Positions 23,500-40,860 of a stretch of 64,000 nucleotides of DNA are shown here, in pieces. The stretch spans positions 1 to 64,000 of the forward strand of contig CAMZDW010000004.1 of the NCBI GenBank assembly GCA_947305555.1. The letters are read 5' to 3'. The notes beneath the pieces were generated by a model. The model was not told the DNA's origin. It was given only the letters and a program-made list of their open reading frames with translations, and searched no databases. Each line of letters opens with the position of its first letter. The stretch's first letter is position 1. The DNA comes from an uncultured Elusimicrobium sp. GTDB lineage: Bacteria > Elusimicrobiota > Elusimicrobia > Elusimicrobiales > Elusimicrobiaceae. The translations under genes and the position numbers were made by a program.

Positions 23500-24540
23500 T
23501 TATTTATTTTTTAAGTAATCGCCGTGGAAACCTTTTGCGTTTTCTACATAGCGGCCAATGGATTTAATTTTTGACTCTATACATCCGCGGCATTTTTCTG
23601 CGCTGTCACCCAGGCAAATTTTACCGGGATACAATTCGTAAAATGGGCGAAATTCCCGGTCCGTCGCATTAGGCATGACGACATTTGCGCCGCTTTTAAG
23701 CGCCAAGAGACGACCATCCGGATGCAAACTTTCCATGGCGGTTGTGGCAGGGATATTAATATCTGGTAGCAGCAAGCGCATCACGGCCATCATTTTTAAG
23801 GAAAGTTCAAAATGCCCGTCCGTTTTTTCGTTGGCCAGCGGTGTTTGCGGGTGCGGAATAAAGGGACCAATTCCGGCCATATCTACGGGAAGTTTTTGAA
23901 AAAATAGTAAATCATTTGCTAGGCTAGCTACCGTCTGTCCCGGTAATCCTACCAGCGAGCCGGAGCCGACCTCATACCCCAACTCTTTTAAATCATACAA
24001 GCATTGTACGCGGCGATCCCAGCTTAGGCCGGGATCTAATTTTTCGTAAAGATTTTTATCGGTGGTTTCAATACGCAGTAGGTAGCGGTCGGCTCCGGCC
24101 TGGCGGTAAGCGGCATATTCTTCACGCGATTTTTCGCCGATGCTAAGCGTGAGGGCTACATCTAATTTTTTGATTTCGCGGATGATGTAGCACAATGTAT
24201 CCGTATTGAACCACAAATCTTCGCCGGATTGTAAAACAATTGTTTTATATCCGTAAGAAACGGCTTGGCGTGCTGTTTGCAAAATTTGCTCCGGAGTCAA
24301 ACGATAGCGATGAACACGCAAATTACTTTTGCGAATCCCGCAATATAAACAATCGTTTTTGCAATAGTTGGAAAATTCAATCAATGCGCGTAAATAGACC
24401 CCATCGCCCACATACTGTTGACGAATGCGATCAGCCGCTTCAAACAAAACGGGTGCTTCCTGGATACGCAGCAAAGAAACGAGTTCTTCCCGATTAAGCG
24501 TATGCGTTTCTGCGGCTTTTGTTACGAGTGAATTTATCAT
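23500..24540 (-). CDS. hydE: [FeFe]-hydrogenase maturation radical SAM enzyme HydE
   Basis: 346 residues. NYCKNDCLYCGIRKSN carries the CX3CX2C radical SAM cluster in the HydE/BioB subfamily style, followed by YRLTPEQILQTA and LQSGED. Near the C-terminus, CLGDSAEKCRGC matches the three extra cysteines that bind a second cluster in many HydE proteins. HydE supplies part of the H-cluster (dithiomethylamine and organometallic precursor steps). Neither hydF, hydG nor a hydrogenase gene is in the window, so this gene is orphaned from its partners. BioB and PylB are relatives, but the C-terminal cysteines favour HydE. Confidence 0.88.
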   Translation of the reverse strand: MINSLVTKAAETHTLNREELVSLLRIQEAPVLFEAADRIRQQYVGDGVYLRALIEFSNYCKNDCLYCGIRKSNLRVHRYRLTPEQILQTARQAVSYGYKTIVLQSGEDLWFNTDTLCYIIREIKKLDVALTLSIGEKSREEYAAYRQAGADRYLLRIETTDKNLYEKLDPGLSWDRRVQCLYDLKELGYEVGSGSLVGLPGQTVASLANDLLFFQKLPVDMAGIGPFIPHPQTPLANEKTDGHFELSLKMMAVMRLLLPDINIPATTAMESLHPDGRLLALKSGANVVMPNATDREFRPFYELYPGKICLGDSAEKCRGCIESKIKSIGRYVENAKGFHGDYLKNK

Positions 24541-24547
24541 CTTTAAG

Positions 24548-24556
24548 AGTATAGCA
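24548..24556 (-). promoter_or_regulatory. Extended -10 promoter of hydE (leaderless arrangement)
   Basis: Minus strand reads TTTTTGC then TATACT, 7 bases, and the hydE ATG. The TGC before the hexamer makes an extended -10. No Shine-Dalgarno sequence fits between the -10 and the ATG. Confidence 0.6.
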
Positions 24557-24568
24557 AAAATATAGGTC

Positions 24569-24686
24569 TTAGGTCCTAAAGCCCGATGGGTCCGGTTTAT
24601 GTAAAATCGTAGGCCTAAATTCCGTATGAAAATGGGTACTAGGACCCTGGTGATTTCCCGTCATAAACCGTATGATATAAATATCA
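24569..24686. repeat. Cluster of inverted repeats upstream of a small ORF
   Basis: A dense set of short palindromes in a non-coding stretch: TTAGG/CCTAA (24569-24579), GGGTCC (24588-24593) with GGACCC (24642-24647), CGGTTTATG (24593-24601) with CATAAACCG (24662-24670), and TGATAT/ATATCA (24673-24686) overlapping a likely AT-rich -10. They could be operators, an RNA fold or the remnant of a mobile-element end. Confidence 0.5.
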
Positions 24687-24712
24687 AATTAGACTAAAAG
24701 GAGGTGGCCCGT

Positions 24713-24871
24713 ATGAATCGTGAAACAGAAAAACAAACGCAAGCATTAAAACAAGAGCGATTGCTTAAAGCGTTTGAAGGCGTTCAGTACAAATTCTTTG
24801 CCGATTGGACCGATATGGACCGCTTTACTCAAGAACTTTTGGGAACCGATATTCGAACAATTTTGCCGTGA
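24713..24871 (+). CDS. Small ORF, 52 residues, unknown
   Basis: Encodes a soluble, charged peptide that begins MNRETEKQTQALKQERLL and ends in LLGTDIRTILP. A near-perfect AGGAGGTGG lies at the ideal distance (7-8 bases) before the ATG, which is the main reason to believe it is translated. The first half is probably helical. No family is recognised. It may be a genuine small protein or the 5' remnant of a longer gene, since the inverted repeats upstream and the non-coding stretch downstream suggest past rearrangement. Confidence 0.45.
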   Translation: MNRETEKQTQALKQERLLKAFEGVQYKFFADWTDMDRFTQELLGTDIRTILP

Positions 24872-24959
24872 TGAAGTAAGTATAATTCATAAACGTCCTA
24901 CAAACTCCTATAACCGGACATCTGTCCTTATTGGAAAGTGGTTTTTAAATAAAATGTGT

Positions 24960-24965
24960 TATAAT
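24960..24965 (+). promoter_or_regulatory. -10 element upstream of the secreted-peptide/protease unit
   Basis: TATAAT ending 8 bases before ATG 24974, with no Shine-Dalgarno between. It lies upstream of the duplicated block, so only the first protease copy has this promoter directly in front of it. Confidence 0.5.
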
Positions 24966-24973
24966 TGGATTAG

Positions 24974-25087
24974 ATGCATATACCTAACTTTATTTTTTTA
25001 ATTATTAGTTTGTTGATGTCTTTTTGCTTGAGCGGAAAAATCTTACACGCTCAAGAAGTTGCCATGCAGGAAAAACCTAAAAAATAA
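24974..25087 (+). CDS. Small secreted peptide, 37 residues, signal-peptide-like
   Basis: The frame reads MHIPNFIFLIISLLMSFCLS and continues to a signal-peptidase-like ILHA, then QEVAMQEKPKK. It therefore looks like a short exported peptide or a signal-peptide leader ORF. The last 23 codons lie inside the 356-bp block that is repeated before the second protease, where an in-frame ATG (26321) would give a 23-residue version (26321-26392). Translation is predicted to be leaderless. The function is unknown; translational coupling to the protease 36 bases downstream is possible. Confidence 0.4.
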   Translation: MHIPNFIFLIISLLMSFCLSGKILHAQEVAMQEKPKK

Positions 25088-25371
25088 CGTAGGAAGGTAA
25101 AAACTTAAATTGTGAGGAAAATCATGAAAACACAAACTCATTTAAACAGATGGTTCGGTGTGTTGGGGTGTTTGTTATTAGCCTCCGGGGTGTATGCTCA
25201 AGAAACTTCCTCTAAATTCTTACCGGTATATAATTCTTCTACCGGAAAGATAGAAGAAATTGAGATTAATGAAAACTTGACAGAAATTGCCGGCTTCGAA
25301 CCTCAATCTGAAACGGAAACCGTGATGGAAAAAGGGATTATAGGCCGGGAAGACTGGTATCAGGTCGATGG
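25016..25371 (+). repeat. Copy 1 of a 356-bp perfect direct repeat (leader plus protease N-terminus)
   Basis: Identical base for base to 26321-26676, offset 1305 bp. It covers the end of the small peptide ORF, the ribosome-binding site, and codons 1 to ~83 of the protease (signal peptide and propeptide). Identity breaks at 25372, and the proteins diverge strongly a few codons later, where the catalytic domain starts. Confidence 0.95.
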
Positions 25372-26317
25372 ACTGAAATATCCATATTCTGCTTCAGTTG
25401 CTCTGTTTTTTTCGGGGCAAATAAGGTGTTCTGCTGCTTTGATTGGTCCTTATACAATATTAACTAATGCACATTGTGTATATAAGGATCCTTCTCATAA
25501 TGACGGCACTTTACTTAATCCCAGTACAATTACAGCTTATGCTGGCGGAACAAGATATGGCGTAAAGGCCAAAGGAACTAGAATTTATGCTGCTTCAGGG
25601 ACAGAACGTATTCGCAATTTTAATGCTAGCACCGTAACAGCAGATTATGCCATTATTGTCTTAGACAAACCGTTAGGAAATAAGAATGGATACTTTGGAG
25701 TGAAATTAGGTCAGATTCACCGGAGAGATTCCATTTTTGTCTTAGGTTTTCCAGGAATAAAATCGCATGACCGTCCATGGTTGAGCCCAGGGGCGATCAC
25801 AGGTATCCATGCAGGATATTTTTGTCATAATGCAGATGAAGTATCAGGGAGTAGTGGTTCTCCGGTGTTTAAAAGCAATGATTTGAACAATATTGTGGGG
25901 ATTAACAGTTTTGACTCTGCTACATACCGTGGGTCCAGAAGGACATCTACTTGCAATGGCGCGATTACACATACACGGGACGCCTTAGTCAATTTTGTCA
26001 AACGATACAGGATGGAAAGACCTACCCAAGCAGAATCGCCAGATCCTCAACGGCAACGAGAGGAATTCTTTAATCGTTTGCAAAGTTGGATGGGCGGTCG
26101 TGGGCTGAGTCAGTTCCCGGATCAAACTCAAAGTCCCGAAACAGGTAATCCAAGTTCAAACGATTCTCGCCACAATGAGTTCATGCAAAATTTTCGACAA
26201 AATTTGCAGAACAGAGGGAGAACTTTTCAAAATGGTCAAAATCTCCCAGGAAAGATTCGAAGATTTATGCGCTTACCTCAAAAGACAAGAACTTCTACCG
26301 ATGCTGTTGCATTGTGA
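25124..26317 (+). CDS. Secreted trypsin-like (S1/V8-type) serine protease, copy 1
   Basis: 397 residues. Signal peptide ~1-25 (hydrophobic core then GVYA before QETSS), a propeptide to about residue 85, then a chymotrypsin-fold domain. The triad is H117 (LTNAHC), D174 (DYAIIVLD) and S244 (GSSGSPV). The motif pattern is closest to bacterial glutamyl-endopeptidase/V8-like enzymes. The last ~110 residues are Gln/Asn/Arg/Pro-rich and low in complexity. GTG 25112 is in frame, but AGGA sits between it and ATG 25124, so the ATG is preferred. The enzyme probably acts outside the inner membrane; its target is unknown. Confidence 0.88.
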   Translation: MKTQTHLNRWFGVLGCLLLASGVYAQETSSKFLPVYNSSTGKIEEIEINENLTEIAGFEPQSETETVMEKGIIGREDWYQVDGLKYPYSASVALFFSGQIRCSAALIGPYTILTNAHCVYKDPSHNDGTLLNPSTITAYAGGTRYGVKAKGTRIYAASGTERIRNFNASTVTADYAIIVLDKPLGNKNGYFGVKLGQIHRRDSIFVLGFPGIKSHDRPWLSPGAITGIHAGYFCHNADEVSGSSGSPVFKSNDLNNIVGINSFDSATYRGSRRTSTCNGAITHTRDALVNFVKRYRMERPTQAESPDPQRQREEFFNRLQSWMGGRGLSQFPDQTQSPETGNPSSNDSRHNEFMQNFRQNLQNRGRTFQNGQNLPGKIRRFMRLPQKTRTSTDAVAL

Positions 26318-26320
26318 TAA

Positions 26321-26676
26321 ATGTCTTTTTGCTTGAGCGGAAAAATCTTACACGCTCAAGAAGTTGCCATGCAGGAAAAACCTAAAAAATAACGTAGGAA
26401 GGTAAAAACTTAAATTGTGAGGAAAATCATGAAAACACAAACTCATTTAAACAGATGGTTCGGTGTGTTGGGGTGTTTGTTATTAGCCTCCGGGGTGTAT
26501 GCTCAAGAAACTTCCTCTAAATTCTTACCGGTATATAATTCTTCTACCGGAAAGATAGAAGAAATTGAGATTAATGAAAACTTGACAGAAATTGCCGGCT
26601 TCGAACCTCAATCTGAAACGGAAACCGTGATGGAAAAAGGGATTATAGGCCGGGAAGACTGGTATCAGGTCGATGG
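26321..26676 (+). repeat. Copy 2 of the 356-bp perfect direct repeat
   Basis: Begins at an ATG 4 bases after the end of the first protease gene (26317) and reproduces the leader, ribosome-binding site and first ~83 codons exactly. The absence of any mismatch, set against the strong divergence after 26676, points to recent duplication or gene conversion limited to the N-terminal cassette. Confidence 0.95.
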
Positions 26677-27679
26677 GTTGAAATATCCATATTCTGCCGT
26701 CGTATCCATTGTTCGCCCCGAATTTGTTGGCGGATACCCCGGATGTTCCGGTGCCTTGATTGGGCCTTACACTGTATTAACCAATGCACATTGTATGTAT
26801 GATAAAAAAGGAAAATTAGCCGATGCCTCGACGTTCAATATCAGAGCAGGTGGTGAATCTACAGGCCGCTGTGCAATCGGTACAAAAATGTATATGGCTC
26901 CCGGAAATCCTCAACAAATTAACTCCCGTTCTGGGCTAGAGCCCTCAAAAGAAAAAGATTATGCAATCATCGTTTTGGACCGTCCGCTCGGGCAAACCGC
27001 CGGTTATTTGAGCTTTAAATCTGTTCGAGTCAAAAAAAATGAACGTATTGCCGTGATGGGATTTCCAGGGGAAAAACCGCATGACCGCCCATGGTACAGC
27101 CCTGGTAAAATAACCGACGTTTTCCAAGGATACTTTCATATGGATGCTGATGCTATGCCGGGAAATAGCGGCTCTCCTGTTGTATATCAAAATGACTTAA
27201 AAACTATTATTGCATTGGAAACATTCGGTGAAGAAACCCCTAATCCGCGGTATAATGGGGCAATTATGTCTACAAATTCGGCACTGTTAAATTTTGTTAA
27301 TAAATACAAAAATGAACGTTCAACGGGAACGCCCGGCGAATGCTTTTCGTTGACAAACCTGCCGGAGCATTCCCAAGCGCAGCAAGAGCAAATGTCATCC
27401 ATTGTAACGGATATAACACAAGCCCTTACTAATCCGTCTGCTTCGGGAAGAATACAACCCGTCCCACCAGAAAATCCCGGGGCTGCTAACAGTTCTTCTG
27501 CTGGTAACATTGACCAATTGCGTCGTTATATGGGTCGATTAGGCAGACCGGGAAGATTTTCAACACCTCCAGGTTCTTCCAATTCTGGACGTATGCAAAC
27601 TCAGCCGTCGCAACCGTCTAACGGGGCGAGTGGTTTTATAAACAGATTACGCAATTTCAGAAATAGAAGCAGAAATTAG
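26429..27679 (+). CDS. Secreted trypsin-like (S1/V8-type) serine protease, copy 2
   Basis: 416 residues. Signal peptide and propeptide are identical to copy 1. The catalytic domain is only moderately similar: LTNAHC, KDYAIIVLD and MPGNSGSPV supply the triad, and GFPGEKPHDRPW parallels GFPGIKSHDRPW in copy 1. An extra cysteine pair (PGCSG, TNAHC) is visible near the histidine. The tail (~290-416) is Gln/Ser/Pro/Arg-rich. It is probably transcribed with copy 1, because the duplication does not include the upstream -10 element. A terminator follows. Confidence 0.88.
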   Translation: MKTQTHLNRWFGVLGCLLLASGVYAQETSSKFLPVYNSSTGKIEEIEINENLTEIAGFEPQSETETVMEKGIIGREDWYQVDGLKYPYSAVVSIVRPEFVGGYPGCSGALIGPYTVLTNAHCMYDKKGKLADASTFNIRAGGESTGRCAIGTKMYMAPGNPQQINSRSGLEPSKEKDYAIIVLDRPLGQTAGYLSFKSVRVKKNERIAVMGFPGEKPHDRPWYSPGKITDVFQGYFHMDADAMPGNSGSPVVYQNDLKTIIALETFGEETPNPRYNGAIMSTNSALLNFVNKYKNERSTGTPGECFSLTNLPEHSQAQQEQMSSIVTDITQALTNPSASGRIQPVPPENPGAANSSSAGNIDQLRRYMGRLGRPGRFSTPPGSSNSGRMQTQPSQPSNGASGFINRLRNFRNRSRN

Positions 27680-27701
27680 TTTATTGGTAGCAAATTATTT
27701 C

Positions 27702-27726
27702 AAACTCCCGGAGTCTCCGGGAGTTT
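27702..27726 (+). terminator. Rho-independent terminator after the second protease
   Basis: Perfect 11-bp stem (AAACTCCCGGA / TCCGGGAGTTT), 3-base loop, followed by further Ts. Confidence 0.9.
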
Positions 27727-27763
27727 TTGCATTTAAAAAACTTCCCTATAGTTTCTTTCAATT

Positions 27764-27772
27764 TGCTATAAT
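27764..27772 (+). promoter_or_regulatory. Extended -10 promoter of rpsO-pnp
   Basis: TTTGC followed by TATAAT (27767-27772), giving an extended -10 (TGC before the hexamer). Transcription would start near 27779, leaving a leader of about 115 bases before rpsO. Confidence 0.65.
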
Positions 27773-27778
27773 TAGTAT

Positions 27779-27894
27779 GTACTTTTAGGTTAAGTATAAA
27801 AATTAAATAACAGGAGAAGGGTAAACCCCGGCTCGGTACTCCTTCGGATAAAGAGTGCTTGGTCGGCTGCGTGAAACCCATTAGAGTAAAACAA
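27779..27894 (+). promoter_or_regulatory. Structured 5' leader of rpsO, candidate S15 autoregulatory RNA
   Basis: GC-rich leader in an otherwise AT-rich spacer. GTACTC (27836-27841) pairs with GAGTGC (27853-27858) around a loop containing CTTCGG, and flanking bases extend the helix with G-U pairs. AGGAGAAGGG (27822-27831) lies ~65 bases before the ATG, too far to act as its ribosome site; only a weak TAGAG is near the start. Ribosomal protein S15 represses its own mRNA through structured leaders in several phyla; assignment here is inference. Confidence 0.45.
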
Positions 27895-28164
27895 ATGGTA
27901 TTATCTACTCAAGACAGAAAAGACATTATCAGCAAATTCCAAACCAGTGCAAACGACACCGGCTCTGCCGCTGTGCAAATTGCGCTCATTACGGAACGCA
28001 TCCAATATATATCTAACCACCTCAAAACCAACCCAAAAGACTTTGCGGGTGAAAGAGGATTAAACAAATTAGTAGGCCAACGCAAACGCTTACTTTCTTA
28101 CCTCAAAAAATCTGACTTTGAAAAATATCAACAAGTCACCAAAGAATTGAAACTCAGAAAATAG
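27895..28164 (+). CDS. rpsO: 30S ribosomal protein S15
   Basis: 89 residues, the exact family length. The sequence fits S15 throughout: TGSAAVQIALITERI, then NHLKTNPKDFAGERGL and LVGQRKRLLSYLKK, ending in ELKLRK. The open frame extends 12 codons upstream, but ATG 27895 gives the standard N-terminus. S15 binds the central domain of 16S rRNA. The rpsO-pnp pair is conserved in many bacteria. Confidence 0.97.
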   Translation: MVLSTQDRKDIISKFQTSANDTGSAAVQIALITERIQYISNHLKTNPKDFAGERGLNKLVGQRKRLLSYLKKSDFEKYQQVTKELKLRK

Positions 28165-28174
28165 GATTTTTTAA

Positions 28175-30286
28175 ATGCCGAACTTTAACCACAAATTTGA
28201 TATTCAAGAAGTGGAAGTTACTGTCGGCCGCGATACCATTAAACTGCAAACCGGTTTAGTGGCTAAGCAAGCTGACGGTGCTGTAATGGCCACGATGGGC
28301 GAAACCATGGTACTTGCCACAGCCGTTTCCACCAAAGAGCAAAAACCGGGTATTTCCGATTTTACGCCCTTAACCGTCAATTATAAAGAAAGAACGTATG
28401 CCGCAGGGAAAATTCCCGGCGGTTTTTTCAAACGCGAAGGCAAAGCCAGCAAGAAAGAAACGCTTTCTTCCCGTATTATTGACCGCACCATGCGCCCGAT
28501 TTTCCCCGAAGGTTTCGCGTGCGAAACCAACGTAACGGCCATGGTTGTTTCCAGCGATGAAAAACACGATGCGGATATTTTATCCGTCATTGCGTCCAGC
28601 GCTTCTGTCGTTATTTCTTCTATTCCGTTTAACGAACCTGTTGCCGCTGTTCGCATCGGCCGCAAAGACGGCGAATATATCGTCAACCCGACCAAAGAAG
28701 AACAAGAATTGTGCGACATGGACCTCGTGATTGCCGGTTCCAAGCAAGGGTTGTTAATGGTAGAAGGTGGCGCGAAAGAAGTAGAAGAAGAAGCCATCAT
28801 TAAAGCCATGGAAACCGCCAAACCGGAAATTGACAAAATGTGCGATGCGCAACTTAAACTGCGCGAATTGGCCGGCAAACCGAAATTTGAATATGTGGTA
28901 GAAAAACTGCCGCAAGAAGTATCGGATTTAGCAAACGGGAAATTCCGTGAAGAAGCCAAAAAAATCTTGCACGCTTTTAGCGATAAACAAACGCGTGATT
29001 GCCAAGTGGCCGAACTCAAAAAATCGTTTACCGAAGAACTCACCGCTACCTACGGCGATAACGCCGCTACGTATGCCGGGATTGCTTTGGAAAACATTAT
29101 GTACGAAGAATCGCGCAACCTCGTATTGCACGAAGGCGTGCGTGTGGACGGCCGTAAACCGACCGAAATCCGCCCGCTGAGCTCCATGGTGGGTTTACTC
29201 CCGCGTGCACACGGTTCTGCCTTATTTACCCGCGGTCAAACCCAATCGTTAGCCGTTGCCACGTTGGGTACTGCCGATGATAAACAAATGGTAGAAGGAT
29301 TGGACGAAACTTCTTACGAACGCTTTATGTTGCATTACAACTTCCCGGGTTTTGCTACGGGTGAATGCAAACCGGACCGCTCTCCGGGCCGCCGCGAAAT
29401 CGGCCACGGGGAACTTGCGCGCCGCGCTTTAATGCCCTTAATTCCCAGCGAAGAAGAATTCCCGTATACGATTCGTGTCGTATCCGATATTACTGAATCT
29501 AACGGTTCTTCCTCTATGGCTTCTGTGTGCGGTGGCTCCTTGGCGCTATTTGATGCCGGCGTACCGATGAAATCGGCCTGCTCGGGTATTGCGATGGGTG
29601 CTATCAGCGGCGAAGGCAAATTTGTCGTTTTGTCCGATATTATGGGCTTGGAAGACCACCTGGGGGACATGGACTTTAAACTGACCGGTTCTCGCAAAGG
29701 GATCACCGCCTTCCAAATGGACGTAAAACTCAAAACGGGTATTCCGCTAGACGTTTTGCGCCAAGCCATTAAACAAGCGACCGAAGGCCGCATGTTCATC
29801 ATGGACCATATGGAAAAGACGATTGCCGAACCGAGAAAAGAAGTTTCCCGCTTTGCACCGGTGATTTACAAAATGCGCATCCCGGTAGACAAAATCGGTG
29901 CGTTAATCGGCCCCGGCGGTAAAAACATTAAACGCATTACCGAAGCCACGGAAACAAAAATTGACATCCAAGAAGACGGCACCGTCAGCATTGCAGCTGC
30001 CAACGCCGACCGTTTGGAACAAGCCAAAGCTGAGATTGAAATGATGACGGCGGAAGCTGAAGTCAATAAAATCTATAAAGGCAAAGTGGTTTCCATTCAA
30101 CCGTTCGGTGCGTTTGTGGAAATTCTGCCCGGCAAAGACGGACTGTTACACATTTCCGAAATTGACAAACACCGCATTAACAAAGTAGAAGATGTGCTTC
30201 ACTTGGGCGACATCGTCGAAGTAAAATGCGTAGAAATTGACAATAACGGTAAAGTGCGCTTGTCTCGCAAGGCCTTACTGAAATAG
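28175..30286 (+). CDS. pnp: Polyribonucleotide nucleotidyltransferase (PNPase)
   Basis: Phosphorolytic 3'-5' exoribonuclease; 703 residues, normal length. Two RNase PH domains are joined by a helical domain. The second PH domain holds NFPGFATGECKPDRSPGRRE, HGELARRAL and the SDITESNGSSSMASVCGG region. A KH domain (KIGALIGPGGKNIKRITE) and an S1 domain (KGKVVSIQPFGAFVEILPGK) close the protein. It starts 10 bases after rpsO and ends at a strong terminator. Codon use is GC-rich, as in ppdK. Confidence 0.97.
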   Translation: MPNFNHKFDIQEVEVTVGRDTIKLQTGLVAKQADGAVMATMGETMVLATAVSTKEQKPGISDFTPLTVNYKERTYAAGKIPGGFFKREGKASKKETLSSRIIDRTMRPIFPEGFACETNVTAMVVSSDEKHDADILSVIASSASVVISSIPFNEPVAAVRIGRKDGEYIVNPTKEEQELCDMDLVIAGSKQGLLMVEGGAKEVEEEAIIKAMETAKPEIDKMCDAQLKLRELAGKPKFEYVVEKLPQEVSDLANGKFREEAKKILHAFSDKQTRDCQVAELKKSFTEELTATYGDNAATYAGIALENIMYEESRNLVLHEGVRVDGRKPTEIRPLSSMVGLLPRAHGSALFTRGQTQSLAVATLGTADDKQMVEGLDETSYERFMLHYNFPGFATGECKPDRSPGRREIGHGELARRALMPLIPSEEEFPYTIRVVSDITESNGSSSMASVCGGSLALFDAGVPMKSACSGIAMGAISGEGKFVVLSDIMGLEDHLGDMDFKLTGSRKGITAFQMDVKLKTGIPLDVLRQAIKQATEGRMFIMDHMEKTIAEPRKEVSRFAPVIYKMRIPVDKIGALIGPGGKNIKRITEATETKIDIQEDGTVSIAAANADRLEQAKAEIEMMTAEAEVNKIYKGKVVSIQPFGAFVEILPGKDGLLHISEIDKHRINKVEDVLHLGDIVEVKCVEIDNNGKVRLSRKALLK

Positions 30287-30301
30287 TAGTAAGTTTTATT
30301 A

Positions 30302-30329
30302 AAAAACCCTGGCTTCGGCCAGGGTTTTT
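30302..30329 (+). terminator. Rho-independent terminator after pnp
   Basis: 12-bp perfect stem, counting the A/T tails (AAAAACCCTGGC / GCCAGGGTTTTT), closed by a TTCG tetraloop. Confidence 0.93.
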
Positions 30330-30342
30330 GCTTTATATAAGG

Positions 30343-30348
30343 TATAAT
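30343..30348 (+). promoter_or_regulatory. -10 element of the 30355 lipoprotein gene (leaderless arrangement)
   Basis: Consensus TATAAT followed by AAACGT and the ATG, a 6-base gap, directly downstream of the pnp terminator. No Shine-Dalgarno sequence is possible between them. Confidence 0.65.
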
Positions 30349-30354
30349 AAACGT

Positions 30355-31044
30355 ATGAAACGAAAAAGTTTTTTCCTTTTATTTACGTTGGGATTATTGG
30401 CAAGTGCTTGTACATATCATGGAACAATACGGCCCAATCTGTATCCCTCTTCTACCAATGAAAACCCAGTAGAAGCATCTATTTTTGTTCTTGCCGATCA
30501 TCATATCCCACAAGAAATTTATATCACAGATCCGGACGATAGCGACACACAGGCCTATCTCCTGCATACTTCACAGGGCGTAGTGGTATCGGTCACGGAT
30601 GCTTTAGGGACTCTTTTTACGCAGGCGGATGCCGGGGCTGATTCTTTTCAGGAGGGGTATGATTTTGTGGCTGATGTTACGATGGAAACGGGTCTCACGC
30701 GCAATAATTGCGAAGGAAATTTAGCAAAATATGCGGTGCGTCAAGAAGGGTTGTGTACGGAGTTGACTATCTCAATCCGGCGGTCCGGGCAGACCACGCC
30801 CGTAGCGGTGGCCAAAGCCTCACGTTGGCGAGAATTTAGAAAACCGGGATTTGCTTCTTCTGTCCGTTGGGTAAATAAACATACGTATATTTTCTCTCCC
30901 ATTCTGACACCGTTGTATGTGCAGTCCCAAGGGAGTTCTCTGCGTAAACAGTTAGAGAGTAATCTAACGGAGGCTTTGCAAGACATCCTGTATCAACTGC
31001 GAGAAAACCGGGAACGATTTGTAAAATCTTTGAAAGAAAATTAG
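30355..31044 (+). CDS. Lipoprotein of unknown function
   Basis: 229 residues. Basic start MKRKS, a hydrophobic stretch and the lipobox LLASAC, with Cys19 as the lipidated residue. The mature part is mixed alpha/beta (for example EASIFVLADHHIPQEIYI), with a cysteine pair (NNCEGN, EGLCTE). The C-terminal ~35 residues are helical and charged. No family is recognised. It is flanked by terminator-promoter on one side and an 83-base gap before the AccB gene on the other, so it is probably its own unit. It is likely anchored in the inner or outer membrane. Confidence 0.7.
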   Translation: MKRKSFFLLFTLGLLASACTYHGTIRPNLYPSSTNENPVEASIFVLADHHIPQEIYITDPDDSDTQAYLLHTSQGVVVSVTDALGTLFTQADAGADSFQEGYDFVADVTMETGLTRNNCEGNLAKYAVRQEGLCTELTISIRRSGQTTPVAVAKASRWREFRKPGFASSVRWVNKHTYIFSPILTPLYVQSQGSSLRKQLESNLTEALQDILYQLRENRERFVKSLKEN

Positions 31045-31127
31045 ATAACTGGGAACTCGCGCGCGCAAACAGCTCAAAATTATGTAGAATAAATAAAAGC
31101 AGGTTATATTAAAGAGGTTTCTTGTTT

Positions 31128-31640
31128 ATGAAAAAAACAGCTACAAAAAAAGCAATCACGACGAAACATACAAGTCCCGTTGCTAACAAAACTGCCAAAG
31201 AATCTCCCATTTTAAAAGAAGTGAAACAGCTTTATGGCTTCATGCAGGATAACAATTTAGAAAGTATTGAATACGACCAAAAAGGTTTGTATCTGCGGCT
31301 TGTGAAAGCTCGCCCGGCGATGGTGCCTGTGCCCGTAGCCGTAGGGGGAGCTGCAGTGTCTACTGCAAGTGGTGCTCCGGTTAGCGCTGAACAGCAGTAC
31401 AAAGAAGTATTTAAAGCTCCGCTTATGGGTATATTCTTCCGCGGTTCTACGCCCAGTGCTCCGCCTTTTGTCAAGGAAGGGGCCACGGTGCAGAAAGGGG
31501 ATGTGATTTGCCTTATCGAAGCCATGAAAGTATTTAATGAAATACGTGCGGAATACACGTGTGTGATTAAAAAGGTTCTGGTCGAAAACGGAAAGCCGGT
31601 TAAACAAGGGGATGCCTTGTTTGCAGTGGAGCGTGCATAA
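31128..31640 (+). CDS. accB: Biotin carboxyl carrier protein (AccB-like)
   Basis: 170 residues. A Lys/Thr-rich N-terminus and an Ala/Pro/Val linker precede the C-terminal biotinyl domain (~90-170) with IEAMKVFNEI, where the lysine is the biotinylation site. In acetyl-CoA carboxylase it carries CO2 between AccC and AccA/AccD for fatty-acid synthesis. accC does not follow, so the rest of the complex is elsewhere. AGAGG 11 bases before ATG 31128 fits as ribosome site. A decarboxylase-type biotin carrier is possible but less likely given the AccB-like architecture. Confidence 0.88.
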   Translation: MKKTATKKAITTKHTSPVANKTAKESPILKEVKQLYGFMQDNNLESIEYDQKGLYLRLVKARPAMVPVPVAVGGAAVSTASGAPVSAEQQYKEVFKAPLMGIFFRGSTPSAPPFVKEGATVQKGDVICLIEAMKVFNEIRAEYTCVIKKVLVENGKPVKQGDALFAVERA

Positions 31641-31641
31641 T

Positions 31642-31902
31642 ATGACCCCATTACAAGAAAATATTCAATTAGCTTCCTCGAACATTAGCACGTATTTGGC
31701 GCAGCACAAAACGGCCTCTTCTTGGCAACTCAAGGTGATGTTCCGTTTGTCCAGTTCGGTGCTGTATTTAGCATTAGGAGCGTTGTATCAAGAGGGGAAA
31801 ATTTCCCTAGAAGCCGACGGAATTAACTACAACGTAACCTGGGGCAAAAAACCGGAAAATGCAGTTCCTACGGCCCCGGCTGCCTTAAAAGAACAGATGT
31901 AA
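31642..31902 (+). CDS. Winged-helix domain protein (DUF2582-like)
   Basis: 86 residues. The core NISTYLAQHKTASSWQLKVM, then LSSSVLYLALGALYQEGKI and the wing-like ISLEADGINYNVTW, fits the small winged-helix proteins of unknown function found in anaerobes. ATG 31642 lies one base after the accB stop, so the two are co-transcribed; a regulatory link to fatty-acid synthesis is only inferred. A terminator follows. Confidence 0.7.
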   Translation: MTPLQENIQLASSNISTYLAQHKTASSWQLKVMFRLSSSVLYLALGALYQEGKISLEADGINYNVTWGKKPENAVPTAPAALKEQM

Positions 31903-31920
31903 ATTTGATTGAAGATTTAA

Positions 31921-31945
31921 AAAGCCGCTCAATAAGAGCGGCTTT
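31921..31945. terminator. Rho-independent terminator between convergent 31642 and 31965 genes
   Basis: Perfect 10-bp stem AAAGCCGCTC/GAGCGGCTTT with a 5-base loop and a T-run on the plus strand. The A-run on the other side lets it work for both directions. Confidence 0.9.
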
Positions 31946-31964
31946 TTTTGTATATCTTAGCGAA

Positions 31965-32705
31965 TCATTTTAAGTGTTTAATACGCGCGGCGTATTTTTT
32001 TGCAAGAGCGTTATTATGTTCATCTCCGCCGGGAGCATTACTGCTTTTATAAATGGGTAGCGCAATGCCTTGTTGACTTAGTATCCTAGCTGCTTCATAT
32101 AGAATGTGGTGCAAAACAGCTGCAAACGCGATAGTAGAGATGGGCGCTACGCCTATTTCATCTAATGTTAAACAGGTTTCGTTTGCACTCACACAGTTAT
32201 CAATGACTAAATCGGCCACATCTTTAAGTAATAGTCCCGAAGAATGACGGCTTTTGCTTTGTTTGTGTGCACTTGCGGCTGTGAAGGCAATCGTGAATAC
32301 GCCCTTTTCTTTAGCCATTAATACGGCATCAATCCCTGCCGGGTTTCGTCCTGAATTAGAAAAAACAAGTAGTATATCACCCTTGCGTAAATCGTGTGTG
32401 GCAAGCAGTCTGGGGGTGTAGCCTTCTTGACGTTCCAAGGCTGTTCCGGTATGAGCTCCATGCTGAAACATCAACCCCGGGTCTAAAATAGCATCCACCG
32501 CGGCAAAACATCCGCTTCGGTGAAACGGTTCCAGTGCCGCACTGGCGCTGTGCCCACAACCAAACGTGTGGATTACTCCGTCGTTTTTGAGGCTTTGAGC
32601 AATATGTGTAGCGGCCTGATTTAAAACGTCTTGTTGGGTGGTTTCTAACCGTTCCAACAGACGTGCAATTTCATTAAAATACGGACTTTGAAAAGATGTG
32701 TTCAT
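31965..32705 (-). CDS. SIS-domain sugar-phosphate-binding protein (UPF0309-like)
   Basis: 246 residues forming one SIS fold. FGCGHSASAALEPFHRSG and DILLVFSNSGRNPAGIDAV hold the phosphosugar-binding Ser/Thr-rich loops. The C-terminal PGGDEHNNAL is typical of the UPF0309 branch, which is related to GmhA and MurQ. The substrate is unknown. Heptose or amino-sugar phosphate is conceivable, since this genome encodes a heptosyltransferase nearby, but there is no direct link. Translation is predicted to be leaderless. Confidence 0.82.
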   Translation of the reverse strand: MNTSFQSPYFNEIARLLERLETTQQDVLNQAATHIAQSLKNDGVIHTFGCGHSASAALEPFHRSGCFAAVDAILDPGLMFQHGAHTGTALERQEGYTPRLLATHDLRKGDILLVFSNSGRNPAGIDAVLMAKEKGVFTIAFTAASAHKQSKSRHSSGLLLKDVADLVIDNCVSANETCLTLDEIGVAPISTIAFAAVLHHILYEAARILSQQGIALPIYKSSNAPGGDEHNNALAKKYAARIKHLK

Positions 32706-32711
32706 AGTTTG

Positions 32712-32720
32712 ATTATAGCA
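32712..32720 (-). promoter_or_regulatory. Extended -10 promoter of the SIS gene (leaderless arrangement)
   Basis: Minus strand reads TTTTGC, TATAAT, CAAACT, ATG: an extended -10 with a 6-base gap to the start codon and no Shine-Dalgarno sequence. Confidence 0.65.
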
Positions 32721-32889
32721 AAAGCCAAGCCTTGTCCTCAGACCGGGGTGCTATTGGCCATACAGATGCTACAAAAAATTGTAAATCAGATAAGTGAACA
32801 AAAAAATCTATTTCTTGAAGAAAGAGCCCCCTTGCTGTCCGATTATGAAAAGCTATCTATCTTTTACGAAATAAAGTAAAATATTCTAT

Positions 32890-35232
32890 ATGCCCAGATA
32901 TTATTACGTTGCTAAAAAATCACGCAAAAAAACAAAGAAAACAGCTTCTACAGGTTCCTGGATTCGTACTGCCTTTTATATCTTAGGAATAACCTTGTGT
33001 GTGTGGCTGGCATCTGCGCTGTGGTTGGATACTGCCACCGGTAAGGTGGGGGAAAATGTAACCCGGATGTTGCGTCAAGTGCTGGGGCAAAGCTCAGCGC
33101 TGATTCCTTTATTCTTGGCATACTGGTTGGTACAAGTAGTACGCAAAAAAAGTGCTTCCTTCTTATTTTTCTTATTGGGAACGACAGTCACATTAGCGGC
33201 ATGTTCCAGTTTTTTGACCCAACTTAAATTAATTTTTAAAGAATCTCTGCTTTCCGGTGGACTCGTTGGTGAAAAAATATATTTTGCTTTCCAAGGAGTA
33301 GCTGGTTCCGTGGGAGCAACGTTGTTTTCCTTAGCATTTATTTTGGTGGGACTCCACATGCTTTTTGCAATTCCTTGGTCGATTATTTTTCAAAAAACAG
33401 TGGAATTTGTCCGTAATGATTTTAATGGTTGGATGGAAGCGCGTGCCGAATTGAAAGATAAAATAGCCCAGGGAAAAGAAGAACAAAAAGCAAAAAAAGA
33501 AACTTCTTCTAAAGAATTGCCTGTTACTGCGGAAGAAATTCGCCACGCTCCAGAAATTCACCGCGCTAAGCCGGAAATCCGCAGACCGGTAGCAGAGCCT
33601 ATTAAAATTCCTCGCCGGGGAGAGGAGAAACAAACCTCAGCGGTTGCTTCTAAAGAAGAACCGGCGGAAAAACTTTCTGCTCCAACGGATGAAAATGGCG
33701 AAGTGAAAAAATTTGATCCGAAGACCTTTCAACTTCCTTCCTTGGATTTACTCAATGACCCGGTGGGTAATGGGGTTGTGGGACCAACAGACGATGAAAT
33801 CGCGCAAGCTACCAAACGCTTGGAAGATACTCTTAAAAGTTTTGATGTGCACGCACACGTAACAGGAGTGTCACCGGGGCCGGTAGTCACACGTTACGAA
33901 ATTCAACCGGATGCCGGTGTTAAAATGTCTTCTATCACGGCCCTCACGCAAGATATTCAGGCCAGCATGCAAGCACGTTCTATCCGCGTGCAAGCGCCTA
34001 TTCCGGGTAAAAGCACACTCGGGTTTGAAATCCCCAATGACCGTCCCGTGATGGTCACCATGAAAGAAATTTTGCAATCGCCGGTGTATGCCGGTTCCAA
34101 AGCCATTTTGCCGATTGCACTAGGCCGCCATGCCAATGGGGATCCGGCCGGAACGGTAGCAGAAAAATGGCCGCACATGCTGATTGCCGGGGCCACTAAC
34201 AGCGGTAAATCCATTTGTGTGCATACAATTATTATGTCTATTTTATTCAAGCACCGCCCGGATGAAGTTAAATTTTTACTCATTGACCCAAAACGTGTAG
34301 AGCTGACGTTATACGAAGGCATTCCGTATCTTTATGATCCGAAAACTTCGTGTGATGATGCTGACATTATCACAAAAGCATCCGACGCAGCCAAATCGCT
34401 CCAAATGCTTGTTAAAGTAATGGAAAAACGATTGGATATGTGTCAGCTTGCCAAGGTTAAAAACATTGAAGGATACAATGCCTGGGCCAAACAAAATAAT
34501 GAAGAAAAAATGTTCTACATTTTTGTCATCATTGATGAAATGGCCGACCTTATGCTACAAACAAAAGCCTCTATTGAAGATTCCATTCAACGTCTTGCAC
34601 AAATGGGGCGCGCGATGGGGATTCACTTAATTTTGTGTACGCAGCGTCCATCCGTTAAAGTAGTAACGGGGATTATTAAGGCGAATATGCCTTCGCGTAT
34701 TGCATTGCAGGTAGCCTCGGGGATTGATTCCAAAGTAATTTTGGATGGCGTAGGCGCGGAAGATTTACTCGGCCGCGGTGATATGCTTTTATTAGACAGC
34801 TCTACGCAAACGCCGCTTCGTATCCAAGGTGCATATGTGTCGCCAGAAGAAATTAAGGCAGTCGCTGATTTCTTACGCGCGCAGGGTGGGCCCGATTACC
34901 CGGTGCAAGTCGTGAGCGAGGCGCCGGCAAACAGTAGCGGACGTCCGCAAGATGGGCTCGGAACAAAACCAGAGGAACAGCTCCAAGCGTTGCGATTAAT
35001 TAAGGAACGCCGCCGCGTATCGCAAGATTTACTGAAGGCACACTTTGGTTCGTCAGCCCGGGCAACCAATATGCTGAGTGTGCTGGAAATGCGTGGGTAT
35101 ATTTCCAAACCGGAAGGGTCGAACCGGTGGGAAATTCACTATGACTTAATTGACCAAGGCATTGAGGAACTTTCCGGTTTACCGTTTGAAAAGGGGTATG
35201 AGGAACCAGAATATGAAAGCGTTTACAAATAA
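32890..35232 (+). CDS. ftsK: DNA translocase FtsK/SpoIIIE
   Basis: 780 residues. Four or so N-terminal membrane helices (~25-170), a charged Lys/Glu/Pro linker (~185-275), and the motor domain with LIAGATNSGKS (Walker A) and IIDEMADLM (Walker B). The C-terminal gamma winged helix (LRLIKERRRVSQDLLKAHFG) reads polar DNA motifs. It pumps chromosome ends to the dif site at the septum. No Shine-Dalgarno precedes ATG 32890; TAAAAT ends 7 bases upstream, so it may be another leaderless message. Confidence 0.95.
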   Translation: MPRYYYVAKKSRKKTKKTASTGSWIRTAFYILGITLCVWLASALWLDTATGKVGENVTRMLRQVLGQSSALIPLFLAYWLVQVVRKKSASFLFFLLGTTVTLAACSSFLTQLKLIFKESLLSGGLVGEKIYFAFQGVAGSVGATLFSLAFILVGLHMLFAIPWSIIFQKTVEFVRNDFNGWMEARAELKDKIAQGKEEQKAKKETSSKELPVTAEEIRHAPEIHRAKPEIRRPVAEPIKIPRRGEEKQTSAVASKEEPAEKLSAPTDENGEVKKFDPKTFQLPSLDLLNDPVGNGVVGPTDDEIAQATKRLEDTLKSFDVHAHVTGVSPGPVVTRYEIQPDAGVKMSSITALTQDIQASMQARSIRVQAPIPGKSTLGFEIPNDRPVMVTMKEILQSPVYAGSKAILPIALGRHANGDPAGTVAEKWPHMLIAGATNSGKSICVHTIIMSILFKHRPDEVKFLLIDPKRVELTLYEGIPYLYDPKTSCDDADIITKASDAAKSLQMLVKVMEKRLDMCQLAKVKNIEGYNAWAKQNNEEKMFYIFVIIDEMADLMLQTKASIEDSIQRLAQMGRAMGIHLILCTQRPSVKVVTGIIKANMPSRIALQVASGIDSKVILDGVGAEDLLGRGDMLLLDSSTQTPLRIQGAYVSPEEIKAVADFLRAQGGPDYPVQVVSEAPANSSGRPQDGLGTKPEEQLQALRLIKERRRVSQDLLKAHFGSSARATNMLSVLEMRGYISKPEGSNRWEIHYDLIDQGIEELSGLPFEKGYEEPEYESVYK

Positions 35233-36007
35233 AAGCGTTTGCGCGTTAGTAGCTATCTGTTTACTGACAGCGTGTGCCCAAAAAGAGGGCCCCGTTGAAC
35301 CCCCTGTTGTTGAGGAGGAAACAGTAGTGGAAGCGGCTCCGGTGGTCTCGTTGCCTCCTGCTGAAAAAACGCAGGAAACGCCGGTGACTAAACCGGTTTC
35401 AGCTCCCGTTGAACCTACCGTTACTGCGCCTGCTAAAACGACTAATTACACGGCAGAAGAATTGATGGAAAAACTCAAGAAATGGGAACAAAATTTAAAA
35501 ACTTTTTCAGCTGATTTTAATCAAGTATCTTCTTATGATGGTGTGGAAATCAATCGCTCTCAAGGGCGGTTATATTATGATTTAGCCAATCAACTTTTGC
35601 GCTGGGAAGTACTAACTAAAACCAATGAGATAGACCAAGTCGGCATTAGCAATAAAAAAGACATTGTTATTTTAGATGAAACCTTGCAACCGGTAACGAC
35701 TTTATCTTGGAAAGAATGGCAAAAAGGACAAGCCAACCAAGCCTTATTTGACATTGGAAATTATGCAGATTTATCTGCAAAACATAACGTGCGTGTATCC
35801 CAACAGGACGGACAACAAGCGGTGCTTGAATTTACTTCGAAACAAGAAGGAGAAAATTACATCCTTTCAATCACGCTGTCTAAAAAAGATTTTTTCCCGA
35901 TTGCAATTGCTATCACGTCTGATGATATGTTGACCGTTACCGAGTTGGTTTCATCCCGTAAAAATGAACCCTTGGAAATGGATTTATTTGGAGGATTTTT
36001 TAAATGA
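35213..36007 (+). CDS. LolA-like outer-membrane lipoprotein carrier, itself with a lipobox
   Basis: 264 residues. The signal peptide ends in the lipobox CLLTACAQ, followed by an acidic, Pro/Val-rich tether (~25-90) and a LolA-type half-barrel domain (LKTFSADFNQVSSYDGVEIN, SQGRLYYD, LRWEV). LolA normally is a free periplasmic carrier that ferries lipoproteins to the outer membrane; here it appears to be membrane-tethered. The start overlaps the ftsK end by 20 bases and the stop overlaps pgsA, so ftsK-lolA-pgsA-pgpA form one unit. Confidence 0.75.
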   Translation: MKAFTNKSVCALVAICLLTACAQKEGPVEPPVVEEETVVEAAPVVSLPPAEKTQETPVTKPVSAPVEPTVTAPAKTTNYTAEELMEKLKKWEQNLKTFSADFNQVSSYDGVEINRSQGRLYYDLANQLLRWEVLTKTNEIDQVGISNKKDIVILDETLQPVTTLSWKEWQKGQANQALFDIGNYADLSAKHNVRVSQQDGQQAVLEFTSKQEGENYILSITLSKKDFFPIAIAITSDDMLTVTELVSSRKNEPLEMDLFGGFFK

Positions 36008-36624
36008 TGACTTTAGCAAATAAAATCACACTCACCCGGGCGGCGATGTCGATTGTTATGTTTTTATTTATCTTGTGGCCGAATGCGTGGGCACGTTTGA
36101 TTGCTACCCTTATTTTTATTGTCGCGGCGAGTACCGATTGGGTGGATGGAAAAATTGCACGCGAAACGAATACCATCACTCCTTTTGGTGCTATCGTAGA
36201 TCCCTTTGTAGATAAAATTTTAGTGGCGGCGGCCTTCTTTGCTTTCGTAGGAATTAAAGAATTGGACGTGCCGATTTGGGCGGTGTTTTTTATCTTATTA
36301 CGTGAACTCATGATTTCTACTTTGCGTGTAATTGCCGCCCTGGAAGGGAAAGTGATGGCTGCGGAACGGTGGGGAAAATTCAAAACGGTTATTCAGCTTT
36401 CTGCCATCGGTACTATTTTCTTTGTGCTGGATGTTTATCATTTGGCATTTTTACTACAGGGGGCTGCCAGCCGGGTATGCGTGATTTTATTTATTACTTT
36501 ACAGAAAGTCCCCTATGCTATTACGGCCATTGCGGCAATTATTACGTGGATTAGCGCGATTTCTTACCTGCGTAATAATTGGGATTTACTTAAAAAATCT
36601 TGGAGTCTACCGTCATGCAAATAA
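36004..36624 (+). CDS. pgsA: CDP-diacylglycerol--glycerol-3-phosphate 3-phosphatidyltransferase
   Basis: 206 residues with about five membrane segments. The CDP-alcohol phosphotransferase motif spans DGKIARETNTITPFG and DPFVDK. It makes phosphatidylglycerophosphate. The next gene, pgpA, overlaps by 10 bases and supplies the following phosphatase step, so the pair covers phosphatidylglycerol synthesis. Confidence 0.92.
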   Translation: MMTLANKITLTRAAMSIVMFLFILWPNAWARLIATLIFIVAASTDWVDGKIARETNTITPFGAIVDPFVDKILVAAAFFAFVGIKELDVPIWAVFFILLRELMISTLRVIAALEGKVMAAERWGKFKTVIQLSAIGTIFFVLDVYHLAFLLQGAASRVCVILFITLQKVPYAITAIAAIITWISAISYLRNNWDLLKKSWSLPSCK

Positions 36625-37097
36625 TCTTGCGTGCTTTAGCTACTGGCCTATTCATTAGTTATTTGCCGGGCTTGGTTATTCCTTTTAAGAAAAATACGGG
36701 TGCAGGATTTTTAGGAACTTTGTGGGGAATACCGTTGGTGTGGTGTTTACCGAACGATTTTTTATTGTACTCCATTTGTATGCTGGTATTTTGGGTATTT
36801 GCTGTATGGGTATGTAAAAAAGTACAATTAAAAGGAGATGGGGGGCACGATAACCCCAAAATTGTTATTGATGAGATTGCCGGATATGTGACGGCAATGG
36901 CTTTTTTACCCAGGACATGGCCCTATTTTGTGGCGGCTTTTGTGCTCTTTCGCACGTTTGATACACTAAAGCCCTGGCTAGTAAAAACATTTGATAATAT
37001 GCACAATGCCTTTGGCGTTGTATTTGATGATGTAACGGCTGGATTGATGGCCAATATTGTTATTCAGATTTTTGTAGTATTTATTGTAAAAGGATAA
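36615..37097 (+). CDS. pgpA: Phosphatidylglycerophosphatase A
   Basis: 160 residues, membrane-embedded. GAGFLGTLWGIPL and NPKIVIDEIAGYVTAM are the PgpA signatures, and the KPWLVKTFDNM and FDDVTAGLMANI segments complete the family pattern. It removes the phosphate from phosphatidylglycerophosphate to give phosphatidylglycerol. ATG 36615 is chosen because the N-terminus then matches the family and the start lies inside the pgsA end. Confidence 0.9.
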   Translation: MQIILRALATGLFISYLPGLVIPFKKNTGAGFLGTLWGIPLVWCLPNDFLLYSICMLVFWVFAVWVCKKVQLKGDGGHDNPKIVIDEIAGYVTAMAFLPRTWPYFVAAFVLFRTFDTLKPWLVKTFDNMHNAFGVVFDDVTAGLMANIVIQIFVVFIVKG

Positions 37098-37116
37098 TTA
37101 AGGAGAATAAGTTTAT

Positions 37117-37755
37117 ATGACGACTGCTACATTACGTGAGTTACTTTCTGCCGGCGGACCGGTATTAATTTTGCTACTACTGCTTTCTGTCTATTCCATT
37201 TCAATCATTTTAGAACGTTTTTTTAGATTGCGCTCGGCCGTTTCTTTATCCCGTAAATTGATTACCTGGAGTAAACATCCCTTACGTTCTAAAAATTATC
37301 AAAAAGTAGCCGATGCCTGCCACAAAGGAGAGGAAAAAAATATTCCTGCAGCCGCAGTGTTAGGTAAACTGGTGACCAATCGTCATCGTCCTACAGAAGA
37401 ATTGGAAAAAATGGCAGACAGTGCGATTGATTGGCAAATTTCCAGATTGCAGCGCCGCTTGACGGTACTGGGTACCTTGGGAAGTATTACTCCCTTTATC
37501 GGGTTATTTGGTACGGTTATCGGGGTTATGCATGCATTTAAAGATTTGGCAGCCAATACGGCTGTAGCCGGCGGGGCTTCTGTTGTAGCGGCCGGTATTG
37601 CCGAAGCGTTAATCAATACGGCGGCCGGGTTATTTGTGGCAATCCCTGCAGTTATTGCGTACAACTATTTTTTATCCAAAACAAATTATTTTGCTAAAGA
37701 GTTAGAAAATATGGCGGATGAATTTATTTATAATTCAGCGGCGGAAGAGGAATAA
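37117..37755 (+). CDS. exbB: MotA/TolQ/ExbB family proton-channel protein
   Basis: 212 residues with three membrane helices. TLGSITPFIGLFGTVIGVMHAF and AEALINTAAGLFVAIPAVIAYN are the conserved channel helices. With ExbD it forms the proton-driven motor that energises TonB or TolA. The neighbours exbD and a TonB-like gene follow within a few bases. TolQ is the alternative name; no tolB or pal is nearby. Confidence 0.88.
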   Translation: MTTATLRELLSAGGPVLILLLLLSVYSISIILERFFRLRSAVSLSRKLITWSKHPLRSKNYQKVADACHKGEEKNIPAAAVLGKLVTNRHRPTEELEKMADSAIDWQISRLQRRLTVLGTLGSITPFIGLFGTVIGVMHAFKDLAANTAVAGGASVVAAGIAEALINTAAGLFVAIPAVIAYNYFLSKTNYFAKELENMADEFIYNSAAEEE

Positions 37756-37757
37756 TC

Positions 37758-38162
37758 ATGAGTACCCATCGAAATAGAACCGTCATGGCAGATATTAACA
37801 TGGTGCCGTTTATCGACATCACGCTTATTTTGCTCATTATTTTTATGGTCATGAGTCCGCTTCTTGTTCAAATGCAACTTACCGTTGATTTACCAAAATC
37901 CACAGCAATTAACACGCAAGCGGAAGATGATGTTATTCGGGTAGAAGTTCTAAAAAACGGAACTGTACAAGTAGAAAATAAAAAATTTACGCTCAAGACT
38001 TTAGAACGTGAGCTTATTTTACGTATGGGGAAAGCAAACAAAAAAACCATTTTGGTTCAAGCCGACAAAGACGTACCTGTTCAGAGTGTTGTGGATGTGT
38101 TTGATATTGCCAAACAATTAGGTGCGGCGAAATTGGGAATAGGAGTGCTTTCTAAAAACTAA
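37758..38162 (+). CDS. exbD: ExbD/TolR family protein
   Basis: 134 residues. One membrane helix with the proton-path aspartate in ADINMVPFIDITLILLIIF (Asp in PFIDIT), then a small periplasmic domain (KTILVQADKDVPVQSVVDV). It is the motor partner of ExbB. It begins two bases after exbB, and its stop shares a base with the next start. Confidence 0.9.
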   Translation: MSTHRNRTVMADINMVPFIDITLILLIIFMVMSPLLVQMQLTVDLPKSTAINTQAEDDVIRVEVLKNGTVQVENKKFTLKTLERELILRMGKANKKTILVQADKDVPVQSVVDVFDIAKQLGAAKLGIGVLSKN

Positions 38163-38872
38163 TGACTAGATACGTAGCACTTTCAAGTGGACTTCATTTA
38201 TTAGCTGCTCTATTTTTGCTGCTTTTGTTAGCGCCTACAGCAAAAAAAGCGTCGGCCACGTACACTATTGATTTTATCGGTTCGGGAAAAGTAATTGCTA
38301 CTACCGGGCAGGAAGCGGCTTCAGTTCCTAAAACTGCGGTCGCAGCTCCGGCCCCGGCCAAAGAAGCAATTCCACAACCGGAAGTAAAACAACCTGCCAA
38401 GAAAGCCTATGTGGCAAAGGCCGAAATGACTGCTAAGCCGCAGGCCCCAGCGAAGAAAAAAGTAGCGGTAGAAGAACCTCTTGCTGCACCTAGCGTGTTA
38501 GATGATGAAAAAGCAACCGGACAGGAAGCTGGCGATAATGCTTCATCAGAGGGAGAATTTTCGGGGGGAAATATACAAACTGATTTTGCTAATTTCCCTT
38601 ATCCGTGGTACATTACCCAAGTTCGCAATTCATTGTGGATAGAGTGGGAAAAACGTCGCCCTGCTGGGGATGTTTTATCGGCGATGGTATCATTTGCTAT
38701 TTCACGAGATGGCAAGATTAAAGATTTGAAAGTAGAGCGTAAATCGGGGGATGATACCTTTGATTTTGCTGCTTCGTCGGCTGTAATTAACGCAGGGCCT
38801 TTTGCTCCGTTGCCGATGTACTATGAAAAAGACGAACTTACCGTTACGGTAGAATTTAAACAGGAGAAATAA
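38162..38872 (+). CDS. TonB/TolA-type energy transducer
   Basis: 236 residues: an N-terminal membrane helix (~6-26), a Pro/Ala/Lys-rich periplasmic spacer (~50-120) and a C-terminal TonB-like domain (~135-236) with PYPWYITQVRNSLWIEW and VSFAISRDGKIKDLKVE. It links the ExbB/ExbD motor to outer-membrane partners. No TonB-dependent receptor is in the window, so it may serve either receptor-driven uptake or Tol-like envelope constriction. Confidence 0.82.
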   Translation: MTRYVALSSGLHLLAALFLLLLLAPTAKKASATYTIDFIGSGKVIATTGQEAASVPKTAVAAPAPAKEAIPQPEVKQPAKKAYVAKAEMTAKPQAPAKKKVAVEEPLAAPSVLDDEKATGQEAGDNASSEGEFSGGNIQTDFANFPYPWYITQVRNSLWIEWEKRRPAGDVLSAMVSFAISRDGKIKDLKVERKSGDDTFDFAASSAVINAGPFAPLPMYYEKDELTVTVEFKQEK

Positions 38873-38874
38873 TT

Positions 38875-39369: not shown

Positions 39370-39372
39370 TTC

Positions 39373-40329: not shown

Positions 40330-40338
40330 GATTTCATT

Positions 40339-40797: not shown

Positions 40798-40825
40798 AAG
40801 TGTCGTTTTCTCTTCTATAAAAAGC

Positions 40826-40854
40826 TTGTTTGTCAGCTTGCATTTGTGTATACT
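40826..40854 (+). promoter_or_regulatory. Promoter of the heptosyltransferase-autotransporter unit
   Basis: TTGTTT (40826-40831), a 17-base spacer and TATACT (40849-40854). Transcription would begin near 40861, the first base of the structured leader described next. Confidence 0.6.
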
Positions 40855-40860
40855 GAAAAT

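Follow-up and report, generated by a model that had tools for sequence, protein, structure and literature searches.

Introduction

The spl operon of Staphylococcus encodes tandem secreted S1 proteases related to the V8 protease. In the sap S-layer genes of Campylobacter fetus, a common 5' block is followed by different protein bodies, with promoter inversion between gene copies. Among release factors, domain-limited gene conversion between the bacterial paralogues RF1 and RF2 has been described, and the part of that study considered here reports two cases inferred by phylogeny (PMC4530459). Anaplasma msp2 and Borrelia vlsE are treated, in the section of the article drawn upon here, as expression-site cassette systems (PMC4534519).

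The locus described here carries two protease genes, A and B, each preceded by a copy of the same repeat (R1 and R2). By description, its tandem secreted S1 proteases are like those of the spl operon, and unlike sap, with its promoter inversion, the locus has direct repeats and two complete genes. As with RF1/RF2, it appears to consist of old paralogues in which a shared functional domain has been homogenised while the specificity-bearing remainder diverged. However, the exchanged domain was catalytic in the RF1/RF2 cases covered by the part of the source used, whereas here the tract is a secretion leader, the genes are in tandem and no differences are left (PMC4530459). The A-B pair is a fresh example of a phenomenon, domain-limited conversion between bacterial paralogues, that this part of the source already documents (PMC4530459). 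The msp2 and vlsE systems, as far as the section cited goes, resemble it in their constant ends, in protein parts that vary and in recombination within common flanks, but A and B are two intact genes, without silent donors or a third module having been found (PMC4534519). A search for additional silent or alternative modules returned two copies in the source genome, itself 79.94% complete, and no third module in 66 genomes of the genus. Literature searches, among them one on protease gene conversion in Elusimicrobiota, listed no account of this locus.

The window, the whole stretch of 64,000 nucleotides that was analysed (contig CAMZDW010000004.1, positions 1 to 64,000), belongs to an uncultured Elusimicrobium sp. 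(GCA_947305555.1), in a phylum with few cultures. The source genome was assembled from a metagenome and comprises 1362506 bases in 60 contigs. RUG14017, another uncultured Elusimicrobium bin, is a close relative; its two entries in the genome set (G061 and G090) were treated as a single genome, referred to below as G090.

Two proteases behind one leader

The tandem order is observed directly, as positions 24974-27679 lie in one contig that includes both joints, from the repeat into A and from A into the repeat, with zero N in the stretch read (Table 1). This A-B tandem with a shared leader is seen in one assembly only.

Table 1. Coordinates of the tandem protease locus and its surroundings (window positions)
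Feature	Position	Strand	Remarks
Block nearly identical to RUG14017 (G090; L063/L064)	24101-28164		mostly 96-100% per 150-bp bin; A part absent there
Tiny ORF, 37 aa, signal-peptide-like	24974-25087	+	last 24 codons (stop included) repeated at 26321-26392
Repeat copy 1 (R1): tiny ORF end, ribosome site, signal peptide, propeptide, start of mature protease A	25016-25371	+	100% identical to 26321-26676
Protease A, 397 aa, S1 family	25124-26317	+	Pfam Trypsin E 9.4e-13; alternative GTG start 25112
Identity extension	25372-25392	+	2 substitutions (25372-25373), then 19 identical bases (25374-25392)
Repeat copy 2 (R2), leads into protease B	26321-26676	+	begins 3 bases past A stop codon
Protease B, 416 aa, S1 family	26429-27679	+	Pfam Trypsin E 8.6e-13; alternative GTG start 26417
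Intrinsic terminator-like hairpin downstream of B	27702-27726	+	terminator scan

A reading made from the sequence alone had reported R1 and R2 as identical; all 356 bases do match, with zero mismatch, and the content that it had assigned to them, from the end of a small ORF through the ribosome site and signal peptide to the propeptide, was found again. It had also placed a sharp boundary at 25371/26676. The change is indeed abrupt, but its exact position is not there: since 19 further bases are identical, the true junction with the diverged domain is at 25393, about 21 bp beyond the repeat end and at the beginning of the mature domain (..YPYSA). The longest identical run in the aligned coding parts of A and B is 248 nt; when match and mismatch sites were permuted 10000 times, the maximum was 32 and none of the 10000 shuffles reached 248 nt. 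Further cassettes elsewhere in the organism had been anticipated by the same reading, and a search of its genome (60 contigs, 79.94% complete) for the 356-bp block gave these two copies only, with no third or further one. In viral contigs there was no match to the one 36-base pattern from the repeat that was used. R2 lacks the first part of the tiny ORF and starts 3 bases past the stop codon of A, so that this ORF is truncated in the second unit; copy 2 would on this account be the derived copy.

Both proteins score above the curated cut-off of the Pfam Trypsin family (48.9 bits for A and 49.1 for B, against 20.6). The motifs TNAHC, DYAII and GSSGS (A) or GNSGS (B), which we take to carry the catalytic His, Asp and Ser of S1 enzymes, are intact and align with TNGHC, DFAVI and GNSGS of 1p3c, the best solved-structure match for both (E 6.5e-11 for A, 2e-13 for B). 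The nearest solved relatives of both proteins are glutamyl endopeptidases, whose S1 pocket histidine lies in the IVGVH segment. At the position aligned to this histidine, A has N (IVGIN) and B has E (IIALE), and for that reason A and B were not classed as glutamyl endopeptidases. This replacement suggests that their specificities may differ from those of glutamyl endopeptidases and from each other, in which case A and B would cut different substrates. The AlphaFold models of the two proteases (mean pLDDT 33.1 and 35.2) were too poor for structure comparison.

With a hairpin after B, none between A and B on the + strand in the same scan, and a TATAAT at 24960-24965 directly before the tiny ORF (spotted by eye and absent from the promoter/terminator scan listing), the locus is likely an operon, a single transcript being predicted from the region upstream of the tiny ORF through the hairpin that follows B.

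Divergence of the leader and of the catalytic domain

Synonymous divergence was compared across the boundary, as the sequence-only reading had proposed. It is zero over the 82 codons of the repeat (dS = 0) and saturated across the next 203 (dS about 2.8, pS 0.73). The argument of that reading that duplication followed by drift cannot give so sharp a boundary holds, even drift being incompatible with a dS of 0 beside a saturated dS; this contrast implies that recombination acted on the leader block. The same reading had taken the catalytic modules to be the moving part, which does not follow, since a leader homogenised between old tandem paralogues that kept their places accounts for the data just as well and is simpler. 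Its description of the S1-type domains as clearly different needs a similar qualification: they are different but homologous, both being Pfam Trypsin domains with 101/207 identical residues. This identity is close to those between A and the single homologue in another species, G032 (96/207), and between B and G032 (89/203). The catalytic domains of A and B, about equidistant from each other and from that homologue, therefore split long ago. The leaders, in contrast, are identical between A and B (83/83) and match that of G032 at only 23/80 residues.

Constraint is not the cause of the leader identity, since, when A and B were each compared with ten other homologues of the genus, the leader was less conserved than the catalytic domain in 20 cases out of 20, the marginal case being A against G070 (0.28 for the leader, 0.29 for the catalytic domain). 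G090 was excluded from these comparisons as an orthologue of B, and two fragments from G009, a broken gene with masked residues, were left out of the leader and catalytic counts and of the tree. Leaders in this family thus appear to evolve fast, and the identity between those of A and B would reflect recent copying. Homologues of A were matched in 11 of the 66 genus genomes, the window genome counted, and the source genome, at 79.94% completeness, contained no other S1 relative of A or B. In the tree, A, B and G032 fall together with a three-member clade in no settled branching order, and a duplication in place giving rise to A and B was for this reason not read from it. In G064, which has the only other tandem S1 pair examined, the longest shared DNA run is 14 nt and there is no long block, so that homogenisation of leaders throughout the genus was rejected; the leaders of that pair are slightly more alike than the catalytic domains (31/58 vs 95/232, p 0.10).

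The repeat in a related genome

In G090, contig C7 stops exactly where the repeat does. Contig C17 begins 99 bases before that end point, in identical sequence, and continues into B. A graph assembler leaves this pattern where two or more paths lead out of the end of a repeat. The default word length of IDBA-UD is 100, and the 99-base overlap would fit such a value. Two papers on RUG-series rumen bins used IDBA-UD and MEGAHIT, and RUG14017 is named in neither of the texts in the form in which they were available. A repeat as long as this one can cause metagenome contigs to break right within genes of this kind. The break was not accepted as proof of a tandem in G090, because C7 passes the repeat start unbroken, with no sign of a second predecessor in the graph. 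Of the 356 bases of the window repeat, 8 are different in the single repeat copy seen in G090, and none differs between R1 and R2. If the duplication is older than the split between the two species, as the calculation presumes, the Poisson probability of zero R1-R2 differences is between 3e-4 (8 expected) and 7e-3 (4.9 expected). Separate conversion in the two species could show as excess divergence of the repeat between them; this sign was considered and dismissed as not significant (8/356 vs 17/1461, Fisher p 0.13).

The similarity to G090 extends over a block of about 4 kb that takes in part of hydE and rpsO. Across the 150-bp bins from 24151 to 28200, identity is mostly 96-100%, the lowest values being 92% (24301-24450), 91% (24901-25050, with a 12-base gap) and 94% (27451-27600). 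Flanking bins are 66-91% identical on the left and 62-93% on the right, and matched pieces at 30000-42000 are 74-83% identical. The left switch lies inside hydE, where identity to G090 rises from 77% at 23901-24100 to 97% at 24101-24250; the same two bins are both 80-81% identical to G018. The simplest reading of this pattern would be that recent homologous recombination in the flanking housekeeping genes moved the locus almost whole between two species.

Origin of the shared leader

A and B are probably tandem paralogues of long standing in which recombination has recently homogenised the 5' block. The abrupt passage from identity to old divergence within homologous genes that is found here is the pattern of partial gene conversion. 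The starting point would be an old tandem pair of genes for secreted trypsin-like proteases, probably transcribed together, with a start ahead of the tiny ORF and an end at the hairpin, and homologous recombination between the copies, by gene conversion or by unequal crossing-over in the direct repeat, would have made the stretch from the ribosome site through the signal peptide to the propeptide identical. Unit 1, in which the tiny ORF is intact, would have been the donor and unit 2 the recipient. The tract would end at the beginning of the mature enzyme, where homology falls to about half, so that the catalytic domains would keep their old differences. Recombination between R1 and R2 is predicted to lose or gain a 1305-bp unit of repeat plus A. 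The locus would be a clean natural case of recombination that affects only half of each gene in a pair: the part for secretion stays shared and the part for the enzyme diverges.

That the leader is an anchor behind which S1 domains from other strains or species are recombined, the window holding two modules and other cells others, is unlikely. The repeat end in G090 does have at least two continuations (the C7 end and the identical C17 start 99 bases earlier), the whole locus appears to have moved recently between species, and G090 B carries window A's two bases at 25372-25373, which suggests junction variants not tied to one module. Nevertheless, the repeat leads into B in both genomes, the other branch in G090 may be nothing but A or a strain variant, and the 66 genus genomes yielded no third module. 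The wider proposal that the leader serves as an anchor for exchanging secreted protease domains at the hydE-rpsO site, among tandem copies as well as across species, with several specificities per population, seems rather improbable; if true, a gut population of this Elusimicrobium type would combine one secretion cassette with several protease specificities.

Recent insertion, in which an ancestor with the leader and B only acquired A together with a leader, placed before or after it, by recombination into its own leader, the donor being for instance a strain that carried A as an allele, is distinctly improbable. The G090 contigs can be read as a single-repeat locus with B, given that C7 is unbroken at the repeat start, and the window copies are identical, but this course of events requires an unseen donor with the same leader ahead of A, and the joint between A and R2 lies at no visible homology. 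Short-read assemblers are able to merge copies that are 95-99% alike, and the tandem could be an artefact in which two strain alleles or imperfect repeats were merged, the genome being a metagenome bin of 60 contigs and the 356-bp repeat being longer than usual short reads. This is highly improbable, in that a graph assembler needs reads that join the end of A to the repeat start, and the order repeat-A-repeat should then exist in some cell. Merging may have inflated an identity of 95-99% to exactly 100%; it cannot create the contrast with a saturated dS, which would survive such inflation.

The hydE-rpsO interval

The hydE-rpsO interval is a variable site in the genus (for example L054, L097, L102, L110 and L121), occupied by differing large predicted secreted proteins or by almost nothing. 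S1 genes were matched in 2 of the 15 intervals listed (window and G032), the remainder holding unrelated predicted secreted proteins or little. This comparison marks the interval as a putative hot spot for secreted-protein genes beside housekeeping genes, whose secreted-protein content would be exchanged within the genus. In G077, sequence like window 24643-24853 is followed by rpsO-side sequence about 85 bases on, and in G026, G071 and G003 an S1 gene lies directly after pnp instead of in this interval. A 52-aa ORF (24713-24871) precedes the variable gene in the window, and many other members of the genus carry a different family of 56-aa ORFs in their hydE-rpsO region (L110, L107, L109 and others); these small ORFs are possibly regulatory. 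Next to hydE in G031 (L103, 5960-7571) are three tandem relatives of the window's 187-aa protein, which share short DNA runs only (23, 9 and 8 nt). Elsewhere in the window, at 43262-44124, a tandem array of a 54-base repeat, with 11 related copies by repeat search, the 11 including one farther off at 46208, is suggestive of a repetitive surface protein.
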